Part shown: piece after piece, positions 20,210-24,250 of the stretch
How positions within the stretch are numbered: the first letter of the stretch is position 1
Layout of the letters: each line of letters begins with the position of its first letter
Source of the DNA: Planctomycetota bacterium
Lineage (GTDB): Bacteria > Planctomycetota > B129-G9 > JAJDCN01
Direction: 5' to 3'
Length of the DNA: 39,337 nucleotides
Assembly: GCA_029260815.1 (NCBI GenBank)
Contig: JAJDCN010000144.1
Span: forward strand, 1 to 39,337
Translations under genes and position numbers: made by a program
Notes under the pieces: model-generated
Databases searched by the model: none
Seen by the model: the letters and a program-made list of their open reading frames with translations, nothing else
Told to the model about the DNA's origin: nothing

Positions 20210-21199
20210 ATGGTGAACAACACAGCGTACAAGAAAATCCATAACGACGGGTTTCTGTTCGATTCCCATGTGGATACGGTCGGGGCCATGCTCTATCGCC
20301 GCGAGGGGAATCGGTGGGCCCCGCCCAAGGGCCGGCGGCTGCAGATCGATCTGCCCCGGCTGCGACAGGGGAATTTCGGTGGACTGTTCTTCGCCGCCTT
20401 CGTGCCGCCGGACGATCCGCAGCCGACCGGGCGGGCAATGTCGATCCTGGCGCTAACGAAAAAATTCGCCGCCGAGCATCCGGACGACCTGGCGCTTGTC
20501 ACCTGTGGACGCGAACTGACCGCCGCACGCCGAACGGGCAAGATCGCCGTCATGCATTCGCTGGAAAACGGCGGCTATGCCATTGACGGGAACCTGGACC
20601 TGATCGATACCTTTTACGCTCTGGGCGTGCGCTGCTTCGGGATCGTCTGGAACGGATCCAACGCCCTGGCCACGGGCATCGGCGGAAAGCCCACCCGCTC
20701 AGGCCTGACGCGGTTGGGCAAACAGGCGATCCGTCTGCTCAACGCCCGCGGCGTGATTCTCGACATCTCGCACATCAACGAGACAGGCTTCCGCGACGTG
20801 ATGAGTCGCATACAAGCACCGGTGATCGCCAGCCATTCCAATGTCCACGCCCTGTGCCCCGTGCCGCGGAACTTGAAAGACGATCAGATCAAAGCGATCG
20901 CTACATGCGGCGGCGTGATCGGCGTTAACATCTACACCGGATTTCTGACACAAGAAAAGATTTCGACTATCGCCCATGTAGCGGATCATATAGAATACAT
21001 CGTTGCGCTCGTCGGGATCGACCATGTGGGGATCGGAACCGACTTCGATGGGATCGATCGACTGCCGGAGGGCCTGGAACACGCGGGCAAGATGCCGGCC
21101 CTCACGCGAGAGCTTGTGGACCGCGGATTCCGCAAGAGCGACATCCGCAAGATCCTGGGGCAAAACCACCTGCGCATCCTCCGCGAAGTGATTGGATAG
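20210..21199 (+). CDS. Membrane-dipeptidase family (peptidase M19) zinc hydrolase
   Basis: This 329-aa TIM-barrel metallopeptidase resembles renal dipeptidase. The binuclear zinc ligands are visible: H20 and D22 in FDSHVDT, E119 in HSLENGG, H188 in DISHIN and H209 in IASHSN. The substrate-pocket Asp lies in GIGTDFDGI. Family members cleave dipeptides, often with a D-residue at the C-side. No signal peptide is seen, so it is probably cytoplasmic. The ATG at 20210 has only a weak ribosome binding site. The end of the gene lies against or overlaps the start of argS, suggesting one transcript. Peptidoglycan-peptide or general dipeptide recycling are both possible. Confidence 0.93.
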   Translation: MVNNTAYKKIHNDGFLFDSHVDTVGAMLYRREGNRWAPPKGRRLQIDLPRLRQGNFGGLFFAAFVPPDDPQPTGRAMSILALTKKFAAEHPDDLALVTCGRELTAARRTGKIAVMHSLENGGYAIDGNLDLIDTFYALGVRCFGIVWNGSNALATGIGGKPTRSGLTRLGKQAIRLLNARGVILDISHINETGFRDVMSRIQAPVIASHSNVHALCPVPRNLKDDQIKAIATCGGVIGVNIYTGFLTQEKISTIAHVADHIEYIVALVGIDHVGIGTDFDGIDRLPEGLEHAGKMPALTRELVDRGFRKSDIRKILGQNHLRILREVIG

Positions 21200-22901
21200 A
21201 AGCTTGGACACATTCATCAAAGAAATCGCCGAACTACTTGGCACCACGCTGCAGATGCGCGGTGCGGACATCGCGTCGTTGATCGAGCGACCGCAGAAGG
21301 CCAATCAGGGCGACTATGCCCTGCCTTGTTTCTTCCTGGGCAAAGAGCAGGGGCGCAACCCGGTGGAGATCGCCCGGGAACTGGCGGACCAACTGGCGCC
21401 CGCCGGAAGCATCGAGAAAATCGCCGCCGCGGGGCCCTACCTGAACTTTTTCGTTAACCGGATCGCCTTCGTCGGTCGCGCGATTGGGGCGGTGATAAAG
21501 ACAGGCGCGACCTACGGCCATTCTACAGTCGGCGCGGGCCAGACGTTGGTGCTGGACTACTCCTCTCCGAATATCGCCAAACCCTTCGGGATCGGACATT
21601 TGCGCTCCACGGTGATCGGCCATGCGATCAAAAAGCTCCACGACGCGCTGGGCTACAAGACGATCGGCATCAACCACCTGGGCGATTGGGGCACCCAGTT
21701 CGGCTCCATGATCGTGGCGTACAAAAAATGGAGCGACAAGCCGGCGGAGGAACTGACGGTTTCCGAGCTGGTGGCGTTGTACGTAAAGTTCCATGCGGAG
21801 TCGGAGGCGGACCCCGCGCTCCAAGACGCGGCTCGTGCGGCGTTCAAGAAATTGGAAGAGGGCGACCCGGAACACGTGGCGTTATGGGAGCGGTTCAAGG
21901 CCGACAGCCTCAAGGAATTTGACCGGATCTACGACATGCTCGGGGTTCACATCGACGTGGCCTCCGGCGAGAGCTTCTTCAACGACAAGATGGGCGGCAC
22001 GATCAAGCGGCTTAAGGCCGCCGGGTTGGCGACCGAGTCGGAAGGCGCGCTGATCGTCGACCTGGAGGGCCACGGGATGCCGCCGTGCCTGCTGCTGAAA
22101 TCCGACGGAGCAACGCTGTACGCCACGCGGGACCTGGCGGCGGCGGAGTATCGTTACCAAACCTACAAGTTCGACCGGATGGTTTACGTCCATGGACAGG
22201 AGCAGAAGCTTCACTTCAAACAGGTCTTCAAGGTGCTGGAATTGCTCGACCGGGAATGGGCCCACGGCTTGGTCCATGCCGAGTTCGGCCACTACCGATT
22301 CAAGGATGCCAAGATGTCTACCCGCAAGGGCAAGACAATCCTCTTGGAAGAGGTGCTCAACAAAGCGATCGAGTTGGCGGAAAAGATCGTCACCGAAAAA
22401 AATCCCGATCTCGAAGACAAAACGAACGTCTGTCGCGCCGTGGGTATCGGGGCGATCATTTTCGCCGACCTGTCCAACCGCCGCAAGCGCGACGTGGAGT
22501 TCGATTGGGACCGCATCCTTTCCTTCGAAGGCGAGACCGGGCCGTACCTGCAATACGCCCACGTGCGCGTTTGCAGCATCGAGCGCAAATGGGGCAAGCC
22601 GATCGGACCGGACACAAACCTGGAGCTGCTCACCGAAGAGGCGGAGTTTCAATTGGCCAAGAAGCTGGCCGACTTCCCCCCCACCATTCGCCGCGCCGCC
22701 GAACAATACGAGCCATCCCTGGTTAGCACCTATCTGTTGGAAGTGGCTCGCGAGTTCAGCAGTTACTACGAAGCCCATCGGGTTCTTAATGAAGCCGCCC
22801 CTGACCTCACCGCCGCGCGGCTGACCCTCGTTGCCGCCGTCCGCCAGACGTTGGCCAACGGCCTGCGCCTGCTGGGCATCGAGCCCCTGTCGGAGATGTA
22901 G
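21192..22901 (+). CDS. argS: Arginyl-tRNA synthetase
   Basis: This 569-aa class I aminoacyl-tRNA synthetase charges tRNA-Arg. Recognised elements are KANQGDYALPCFFLG in the N-terminal Add1 domain, the ATP motif SSPNIAKPFGIGHLRST (HIGH-equivalent FGIGH at 132-136), the KMSK equivalent KMSTRKG (from residue 374), and a DALR-type helical anticodon domain ending in GLRLLGIEPLSEM. The first His of HIGH is Gly, a variation tolerated in some ArgS lineages. Start choice is uncertain: TTG 21192 overlaps the dipeptidase stop by eight bases, while TTG 21204 would give a 565-aa protein. Neither has a clear ribosome binding site, and no ATG is available close by. Confidence 0.95.
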   Translation: MDRSLDTFIKEIAELLGTTLQMRGADIASLIERPQKANQGDYALPCFFLGKEQGRNPVEIARELADQLAPAGSIEKIAAAGPYLNFFVNRIAFVGRAIGAVIKTGATYGHSTVGAGQTLVLDYSSPNIAKPFGIGHLRSTVIGHAIKKLHDALGYKTIGINHLGDWGTQFGSMIVAYKKWSDKPAEELTVSELVALYVKFHAESEADPALQDAARAAFKKLEEGDPEHVALWERFKADSLKEFDRIYDMLGVHIDVASGESFFNDKMGGTIKRLKAAGLATESEGALIVDLEGHGMPPCLLLKSDGATLYATRDLAAAEYRYQTYKFDRMVYVHGQEQKLHFKQVFKVLELLDREWAHGLVHAEFGHYRFKDAKMSTRKGKTILLEEVLNKAIELAEKIVTEKNPDLEDKTNVCRAVGIGAIIFADLSNRRKRDVEFDWDRILSFEGETGPYLQYAHVRVCSIERKWGKPIGPDTNLELLTEEAEFQLAKKLADFPPTIRRAAEQYEPSLVSTYLLEVAREFSSYYEAHRVLNEAAPDLTAARLTLVAAVRQTLANGLRLLGIEPLSEM

Positions 22902-22911
22902 GCAACCCCGA

Positions 22912-22935
22912 AGTGAGCCACGGGCGTGGCTCACT
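22912..22935 (+). terminator. Strong hairpin after argS (terminator-like, no T-tract)
   Basis: AGTGAGCCAC and GTGGCTCACT form a perfect 10-bp stem around the loop GGGC, starting 10 bases after the argS stop. A second short hairpin (GGGGC/GCCCC) follows. With no T-run it may act with Rho, stabilise mRNA, or be a small repeat element. Confidence 0.45.
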
Positions 22936-23002
22936 CAGGGGGCGGCAGAGCCCCGCAATGCCATCATTCATCAACAGGGGCCAAACCTCTTCATTAGCGA
23001 GC

Positions 23003-23038
23003 TAGATCCCTCACTACGTTCAGGATGACGGAAAGAAG
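23003..23038 (+). repeat. Half copy of dispersed palindromic repeat
   Basis: This segment starts TAGATCCCTCACTACG and continues TTCAGGATGACGGAAAGAAG. It matches 23349-23384 except for a few substitutions and one indel, giving a direct repeat about 346 bp apart. Confidence 0.7.
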
Positions 23039-23071
23039 GCGCGGGCTGGCGGAGAAGAGCCCGGGCCGAGC

Positions 23072-23101
23072 GGCAGGGTCGGGAAGGGTCGGCAAAAAGG
23101 G
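23072..23101 (+). repeat. Array A: GGTCGGCA-type units
   Basis: Units GGCAGGGTC, GGGAAGGGTC and GGCAAAAAGGG repeat with a 9-10-base period. The block is an imperfect inverted match to 23170-23205, so a transcript could form a stem of about 30 bp with a loop of about 70 bases. Confidence 0.6.
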
Positions 23102-23175
23102 CATATCCGCATACTTCTTATCTTTTTTGGCCAGGGAAAGGGAATGAGGGTCTAAAAAGATGTTGAATGGCCCCG

Positions 23176-23205
23176 ATTTGCCGACCCTGCCGACCCTTGC
23201 CGACA
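23176..23205 (-). repeat. Array B: TGCCGACCC units
   Basis: TTTGCCGACCC, TGCCGACCC and TTGCCGACA follow one another with a 9-10-base period. This is the inverted partner of array A. Confidence 0.6.
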
Positions 23206-23230: not shown

Positions 23231-23293
23231 CCGGGGGGGGGGGCGGGGTGTTGCTGTCGTCGATGACAACCGCCGGGACCCCACTGCCATTTT

Positions 23294-23384
23294 CGTCATT
23301 CTGAGCAAAGCGACGAATCTGGTCTGTAGGCGGAAAAGAGTTGCAAAGTAGATCTTCACTGCGTTCAGGATGATGGAAAGAAAG
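23294..23384. repeat. Dispersed palindromic repeat (MITE-like), about 91 bp
   Basis: The left end, CGTCATTCTGAGCAAAGCGA then CGAATCT (23294-23320), is an imperfect inverted repeat of the right end (23349-23375, TAGATCTTCACTGCGTTCAG then GATGATG). The sequence matches a repeat that I recognise in many bacterial genomes and that is usually mis-annotated as short hypothetical ORFs. No transposase is nearby. Confidence 0.65.
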
Positions 23385-23412: not shown

Positions 23413-23442
23413 ATGACAGCATATGACGGCAATGACGGTAAA
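23413..23442 (-). repeat. Array D: three inverted TTRCYGTCAT units
   Basis: ATGACAGCAT, ATGACGGCA and ATGACGGTAA are consecutive. On the minus strand they read as the same motif as arrays E and F. Bases 23422-23443 can pair with 23520-23541 with 19 Watson-Crick pairs, two G-U pairs and one mismatch. Confidence 0.7.
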
Positions 23443-23519
23443 TCCGGGGCTTCTCAACATTTCTCACAACCTCTAGAGCGGCACGATAGAGCATCTTGCC
23501 TTTTATAAAAGAGTGGAGA

Positions 23520-23540
23520 ATTTACTGTCATTACTGTCAT
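23520..23540 (+). repeat. Array E: two TTACTGTCA units
   Basis: TTTACTGTCA and TTACTGTCAT are tandem copies with a 9-base period and are partner to array D. Confidence 0.7.
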
Positions 23541-23579
23541 ACCCCATCAATAAGTGCAGGCGGCACATCCGGTTAGATT

Positions 23580-23628
23580 ATGACGGTAAACGGAATTGTT
23601 ACCGTCATTTGCTGTCATTTACTGTCAA
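23580..23628 (+). repeat. Array F: one inverted and three tandem 10-mers
   Basis: ATGACGGTAA (23580-23589) is the perfect inverse of TTACCGTCAT (23599-23608) over a nine-base spacer. The second arm continues as TTGCTGTCAT and TTACTGTCAA with exact 10-base period. Ten-base phasing on one helix face looks like a protein-binding iteron. Confidence 0.7.
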
Positions 23629-23718: not shown

Positions 23719-23747
23719 TTGACAAGGACCGGCCCATCACGAACAAT
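23719..23747 (+). promoter_or_regulatory. Promoter for the small membrane protein gene
   Basis: Perfect TTGACA (23719-23724), 17-base spacer, AACAAT (23742-23747, four of six). GAGGTG precedes the ATG at 23786. Confidence 0.5.
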
Positions 23748-23785: not shown

Positions 23786-24250
23786 ATGGATATACAGGCA
23801 ATCTTCGGACTGCAGTTTCTCTTAAGTCTCATCGTATGGGGCTTCATCGCAAAATGGTTGTTCGCGCCGTGGCTGGAAAAGAAGCCGACCCACGAAGCGC
23901 TTTTCTGGCTGGGCCTGCCCCATGTCTTTCGCCACGTTGGAATGGTATTCCTCGTTCCCGGCGTGGTGGACCATTCCTTACCTGAAGGGTTCGCCAATGC
24001 TGCCGCCTACGGCGACTTGATCACCGGTGTGCTGGCCCTGCTGGCCCTCATCGCTCTACGGGCGGGCTGGTCCGCAGCGGTGGGCATGGTCTGGACCTTC
24101 AACATTGTCGGCTCGGTGGACCTGCTCAATGCCCTCCGGCACGTGAATGTAGCACCGGACCTCGGGGCGGCCTGGTACATACCGACCATTCTTGTACCCT
24201 TGCTCTTGGTCACCCATTTCATGATCTTCGCCCGACTCCTTCGGCGATAA
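23786..24250 (+). CDS. Small multi-pass membrane protein of unknown function
   Basis: This 154-aa, very hydrophobic protein has about four membrane helices: 6-27, 44-62, 78-105 and 126-150. A His-containing segment PHVFRHVGMVFLVPGVVDHS lies between helices one and two, and another His sits in the third loop (NALRHVNVAP). I do not recognise the family. It has its own promoter and a good ribosome binding site (GAGGTG). It lies immediately after the repeat-rich interval and converges on nagA, with a 32-base overlap at the 3' ends. The conserved-looking His residues near membrane surfaces could suggest metal or small-ligand handling, but that is speculation. Confidence 0.7.
   Translation: MDIQAIFGLQFLLSLIVWGFIAKWLFAPWLEKKPTHEALFWLGLPHVFRHVGMVFLVPGVVDHSLPEGFANAAAYGDLITGVLALLALIALRAGWSAAVGMVWTFNIVGSVDLLNALRHVNVAPDLGAAWYIPTILVPLLLVTHFMIFARLLRR

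Follow-up and report, generated by a model that had tools for sequence, protein, structure and literature searches.

The window analysed here, a stretch of 39,337 nucleotides from a Planctomycetota bacterium, contains a spacer bounded upstream by a gene that we take to be argS (ORF 21192-22901) and downstream by a 154-aa ORF (23786-24250) for which no Pfam or NCBIfam match was found. Two arrays of short repeats lie in this spacer, namely a cluster of TGACRGYA units (23413-23628), to which the initial annotation had drawn attention, and a second, related array of KGTCGGCA units (23071-23205); no initiator gene adjoins the TGACRGYA array. The spacer also holds dispersed repeats, which include a repeat with a GTGAGCCACG palindrome (22898-22990), matched at 24 other places in a similarity search of the genome, a CTGAGC half-palindrome on the opposite side of the second array (22997-23036), and a degenerate CTGAGC palindrome (23292-23383), matched at 27 other places. 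The first of these spans ~93 bases, with genome copies up to 97% identical, and the CTGAGC family is of the GTCATTCTGAGC...GAATCT type; the 59 genome places matched by the spacer query comprised 27 for the main CTGAGC part and 4 for the CTGAGC half. Literature searches of open-licence papers gave no useful match to the CTGAGC repeat letters or the peptide read from this repeat, and nothing useful for the TGACRGYA motif letters.

The nine-unit, both-orientation cluster described in the initial annotation was borne out by motif counts. With up to one mismatch, the window has 19 copies of TTRCYGTCAT where 5.75 would be expected; none of 100 shuffles reached 19, and nine of the 19 matches (seven exact, two with one mismatch) fall in 23413-23628. 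Read as the 8-mer TGACRGYA, all nine units are exact and make up nine of the ten exact copies in the window, and such a span held at most three units in 200 first-order Markov resamples. The units start at 23414, 23424 and 23433 (+ strand), 23523 and 23532 (- strand), 23581 (+ strand), and 23600, 23610 and 23620 (- strand), forming groups of 3, 2, 1 and 3 whose orientation alternates by group, the units of a group starting every 9-10 bases; they differ solely at position 5 (A/G) and position 7 (C/T). Motif matching places group D, with three units of period 9-10, at 23413-23442 on the + strand, group E, with two TGACAGTA units of period 9, at 23522-23540 on the - strand, a lone TGACGGTA unit at 23580-23589 on the + strand, and group F, with three units of period 10, at 23599-23628 on the - strand. 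The lone unit supplies one arm of a perfect 10-bp inverted pair (ATGACGGTAA/TTACCGTCAT), and this pair, like the pairing of groups D and E with two G-U and one C-A, could be read directly in the sequence as had been claimed. The spacer between D and E (23443-23521), with an A+T content of 54% compared with 41% for the window, is a possible candidate for an unwinding region.

Within its own genome and phylum the array is rare. The pair pattern TGACRGYAN{0,3}TGACRGYA, counted across the genome as the initial annotation had proposed, occurs five times, all in this array, against one occurrence of a reversed control pattern, and a similarity search of the genome with the spacer sequence gave no second copy of the array. 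A TGACRGYA triple was present in only one other among 392 genomes of the phylum, the nearest of which were relatives at class level, and TGACRGYA was not found as a simple recurrent motif through the genome or phylum. In an iteron survey of a 284-kb sample of the genome that included the window, scored as copies of one 9-mer per 240 bases, the TGACRGYA cluster scored 6 and the KGTCGGCA array 5; three clusters, all single-strand, scored higher and seven others scored 5, all ten counted irrespective of coding.

The second array could be traced to a primase gene. A three-unit GTCGGCA pattern was found in 1 of 246 phylum genomes, this being the genome of the window, at three places: the window itself and contigs C87 and C108. 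The C108 array adjoins the 3' end of a gene for a 756-aa DNA primase matching phrog_239 (E 2.9e-25) and phrog_6088 (E 6.7e-24) in PHROGs and giving no Pfam match; the protein has a weak DnaG-like match at its N-terminus and a GxxGSAKT sequence that we take to be a Walker A motif, and only its Toprim part was matched in a PDB profile search. It shares 49-51% identity over nearly full length with two Eisenbacteria primases whose genes have TGACRGCA arrays at their 3' ends, and 33% over 610 columns with a Planctomycetales primase, and no relatives were found in IMG/VR. Its own sites are TGTCGGCA, not TGACRGYA. The two window arrays therefore match two specificities, TGTCGGCA/GGTCGGCA and TGACRGYA, that are used in the same primase family. 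In the window, motif matches and alignment delimit a left arm (GGTCGGGA, GGTCGGCA; 23071-23094, + strand), a core of 83 bases with 57% A+T (23095-23177), a right arm (GGTCGGCA, GGTCGGCA, TGTCGGCA; 23178-23205, - strand), a CTTTACATT direct repeat also present in C87 and C108 (23206-23232, + strand), and a stretch with 39/57 identities to the 3' end of the C108 primase gene and 47/57 to C87 (23233-23289, - strand), and CTGAGC copies flank this origin segment in all three places. The second window array duplicates DNA that flanks a primase gene of this genome on its 3' side. The core between the arms is 95-99% identical in pairwise comparison (window-C87 81/84, window-C108 80/84, C87-C108 83/84), and the flanks are far looser, with 18/45, 25/68 and 24/68 identities just left of the arms; four of the five window units show the same T-to-G step relative to C87 and C108. 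These comparisons suggest constraint on the core together with a shift in specificity, although recent copying with remodelled flanks would in part look alike. The copies form a decay series: C108 has primase and origin, C83 has a diverged origin and a C-terminal primase fragment (28/30 and 11/11 residues), and C87 and the window have the origin without a primase gene, the stretch aligning to the primase 3' end being retained. Elsewhere in this genome, the sole DUF5906 protein, encoded on contig C58, has no array near it and was rejected as initiator on these grounds, and VapE is absent.

Arrays of TGACRGYA units also occur in other bacteria. At least 118 stretches were found when GTDB species genomes were scanned for three units. 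Among the matches listed (136 array matches), 96 had a 9-base period and 79 lay in stop-free frames of at least 200 codons; these are coding repeats unrelated to the array, and other stretches among the matches listed are intergenic and in both orientations. In a hand-picked set whose neighbour genes were read with Pfam and PHROGs, phrog_6088 primases lay beside the arrays in Eisenbacteria and Planctomycetales, other replication neighbours were DUF5906 (just below cut-off) in Opitutales, AAA_25 in Coriobacteriaceae and VapE in Prevotellaceae, and integrases were found beside arrays in Planctomycetales, Ruminococcus and Clostridia. Both-orientation arrays at the 3' end of a primase/helicase gene were seen in Eisenbacteria, Planctomycetales (with the integrase adjoining), Opitutales, Coriobacteriaceae and Prevotellaceae. 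The neighbours were not replication genes by Pfam and PHROGs at L059, L077, L090, L096, L133 and L186, and had no match in either at L109, L124 and L128. One Eisenbacteria MAG (G048) has two primase loci (L196 and L197, on C15 and C182); these share 74% identity over 4 kb, and in both the seven array units sit equally far from the stop codon. A shared group order between the window and Eisenbacteria arrays was considered and dropped because the signs disagree. At primase loci elsewhere, too, the units vary at positions 5 and 7. The reading of the cluster as a DNA-binding array in the initial annotation thus appears right in kind, judging from the recurrence of motif and layout beside replication primase/helicase genes, and the maintained RNA stem that it had proposed is not needed, the unit differences being confined to positions 5 and 7 here as at those loci.

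Arrays without an adjoining gene were encountered in two Prevotellaceae genomes. The six arrays of G040 all span exactly 93 bases, counted from the first unit to the last, and one of these arrays lies ~150 bases after a VapE gene; the array spacers average 42% identity as printed, a figure lowered by two of the six being reversed. G042 also has six arrays, one of them adjoining a VapE gene on its 5' side. Gene-less copies are therefore not peculiar to the window. The G042 loci (L190-L195) show outer and inner TGACAG arrays, and in several copies TTTGCCCGTAGCAAAC hairpins are repeated in the interval between these arrays.

Arrays of this kind are also carried by phages and plasmids. IMG/VR contained 40 stretches with three TGACRGYA units, 11 of them in both orientations, and six of these 11 clusters (with near-duplicates, L238 and L243, among them) lie 3' of VapE, D5_N, RepB_primase or DUF5906 genes; no replication gene was identified beside the other five. 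DUF5906 genes have GGTCGGCA arrays on their 3' side in L254, L255 and L257, and L249 has such an array beside a DUF5906 gene. For a motif-blind sample, 50,697 phage records were searched with three primase/VapE proteins, giving relatives in 384, 28 and 364 records, from which 14 phage loci were hand-picked for diversity. In eight of the 14 a single 8-mer was present 10-13 times, with copies on each strand, in the 350 bp after the gene, a count equalled by no other tested window of the same locus. The motif differs by phage group (CAGACAG, CCCTGCACA, GGGGTGACC, ACCAACC, GTTGGGT and GGAACAT), and TGACRGYA itself was used by none of the 14. The remaining six had no array right after the gene: in one it was displaced behind the next gene, and in five, which look lytic by gene content, none was seen. 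The pattern was weaker among eight plasmid or phage relatives of the C108 primase, of which two had clear arrays, one phage tied with the background and five had none. In the two with clear arrays, both Streptomyces plasmids, a dense both-strand array lies a few hundred bases beyond the primase gene; in these (L404 and L405), 13-14 TGCGTCCC units on both strands follow a primase-helicase gene and likely form the plasmid origin. The rule suggested by these loci is that short iterons in both orientations right after a D5/VapE/DUF5906-type gene mark a likely origin in many temperate phages.

It is proposed, with a probability of about 0.72, that the TGACRGYA cluster is an origin-type iteron array orphaned from a primase-helicase initiator of phage or mobile-element type. 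Its motif, layout and neighbours and the homologous loci elsewhere point to an origin, to which the primase would bind and which would be, or have been, active as such. The array may have arrived together with a relative of the C108 primase that has since been lost, and descent from a lost element is its most likely history. In the proposed mechanism, a self-loading primase-helicase initiator would bind, through its C-terminal part, to short sites that are spaced by about a helical turn and arranged around an A+T-richer stretch in groups whose orientation alternates, and this binding would open the DNA and start replication of the element; the window array would have been orphaned, in otherwise ordinary chromosomal DNA, between argS and a small gene, beside a second orphan array of related specificity. 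Several observations count against this proposal: the array has no adjoining initiator gene and no second TGACRGYA copy in the genome; the C108 primase has TGTCGGCA sites, the C58 DUF5906 protein has no array and VapE is absent; and arrays are lacking right after the gene at 6 of 14 phage loci, none of the 14 using TGACRGYA itself, and in 5 of 8 C108 primase relatives, as are replication genes beside 5 of 11 phage clusters.

REP and REPIN sequences are dispersed small palindromic intergenic repeats. The likeness to REP/REPIN systems with a RAYT transposase lies in these traits, whereas RAYT (PF01797) is missing from 9 of 13 genomes tested, the genome of the window included; with no RAYT match in this genome (G000, 89.4% complete), a RAYT/REP origin was rejected. 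A closer parallel contradicts the statement in the initial annotation that no known feature type explains the cluster. The helicases SaPI Rep and SCCmec Cch2 have short-iteron origins directly downstream of their genes, and in SaPI Rep the C-terminal domain recognises the iterons next to its own gene (PMC7581432). The likeness to these origins lies in the short iterons, a putative target of the C-terminal domain of a primase/helicase initiator; the window array has multiple repeats about one turn apart, both orientations and an A+T-richer spacer, but does not lie directly downstream of such a gene, a position occupied by the C108 copy of the second array and by TGACRGYA arrays elsewhere. Unlike the SaPI/SCCmec origins, the window has no initiator gene, a different sequence and two adjoining specificities, and binding here is predicted. 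The origin of the phage satellite PLE (NCR3) is similar in that iterons of a noncoding region are needed for replication of the element, and differs in its initiator, which belongs to another family, RepA_N (PMC7145576).

At present the orphan array may be a relic, a decoy (initiator trap) or a mini-replicon serving as a template in trans. That the host retains orphan origins because they titrate initiators of phages or satellites that invade it is a tentative alternative, and an unlikely one. It would accord with the intact state of all nine TGACRGYA units, with the 95-99% core identity of the neighbouring orphan origin amid looser flanks, with the common T-to-G step in four of its five units, and with the fixed 93-base span of the six Prevotellaceae arrays at a mean spacer identity of 42% as printed (lowered by the two reversed spacers). 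A precedent is the PER (phage-encoded resistance) element of Streptococcus phage Sfi21, an origin-like noncoding phage piece in a host that is reported to act as such a decoy, yet its effect depends on copy number (PMC6356513), and the window array is a single copy. No phage infecting this lineage is known to carry a TGACRGYA iteron, and the intact units may only reflect recent arrival. A broader and equally speculative proposal is that bacterial chromosomes harbour orphan primase-type origins as a class of their own, detached from the initiator gene and retained with their iterons intact, their geometry fixed and their specificity shifted because they act in trans, either trapping the initiators of incoming replicons or serving primase-only elements as minimal, non-autonomous replicons. 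The component parts of the finding are already known; no description of gene-less origins with two or more specificities dispersed over one chromosome came up in open-licence papers, and the same literature offered nothing relevant on phage-origin decoys on chromosomes.

An operator array, by which a chromosomal regulator would control the 154-aa gene at 23786 or argS, is improbable: the array does precede the 154-aa gene, and promoter prediction gave a sigma-70-like candidate at 23719-23747, but the array ends ~90 bases before this promoter, its motif recurs at primase loci of other phyla, and it is single in its genome, with a triple in only one other of the 392 phylum genomes. Chance local duplication of a functionless short word is very hard to credit; short tandem duplications are common and most other TGACRGYA triples among the matches listed are coding repeats of 9-base period, but against it stand nine units that are exact, lie in both orientations and differ by transitions at just two positions, and the presence of the same 8-mer at primase loci in several phyla. 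Least probable is an RNA hairpin or RNA-acting regulator, since the fold of the 241-nt region, although better than shuffles (z -5.35), is what any both-orientation site set would give, same-strand direct repeats cannot pair mutually, the layout varies between loci with the 8-mer kept, and Rfam gave no family at gathering score, its two matches up to E 1 being far below it.

With the orphan-origin reading, what was an unexplained repeat can be put to the test as an origin that lacks its initiator. A single genome with an intact C108 locus, a decayed C83 locus and gene-less C87 and window copies, the units of the window copy having changed in step, offers a natural series for studying drift in initiator-iteron specificity and a possible host role of gene-less origins. 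As a minor observation, the C58 contig (L284/L286) carries a recombinase-like ORF and very large ORFs beside its DUF5906 protein, and looks like a mobile or defence island.
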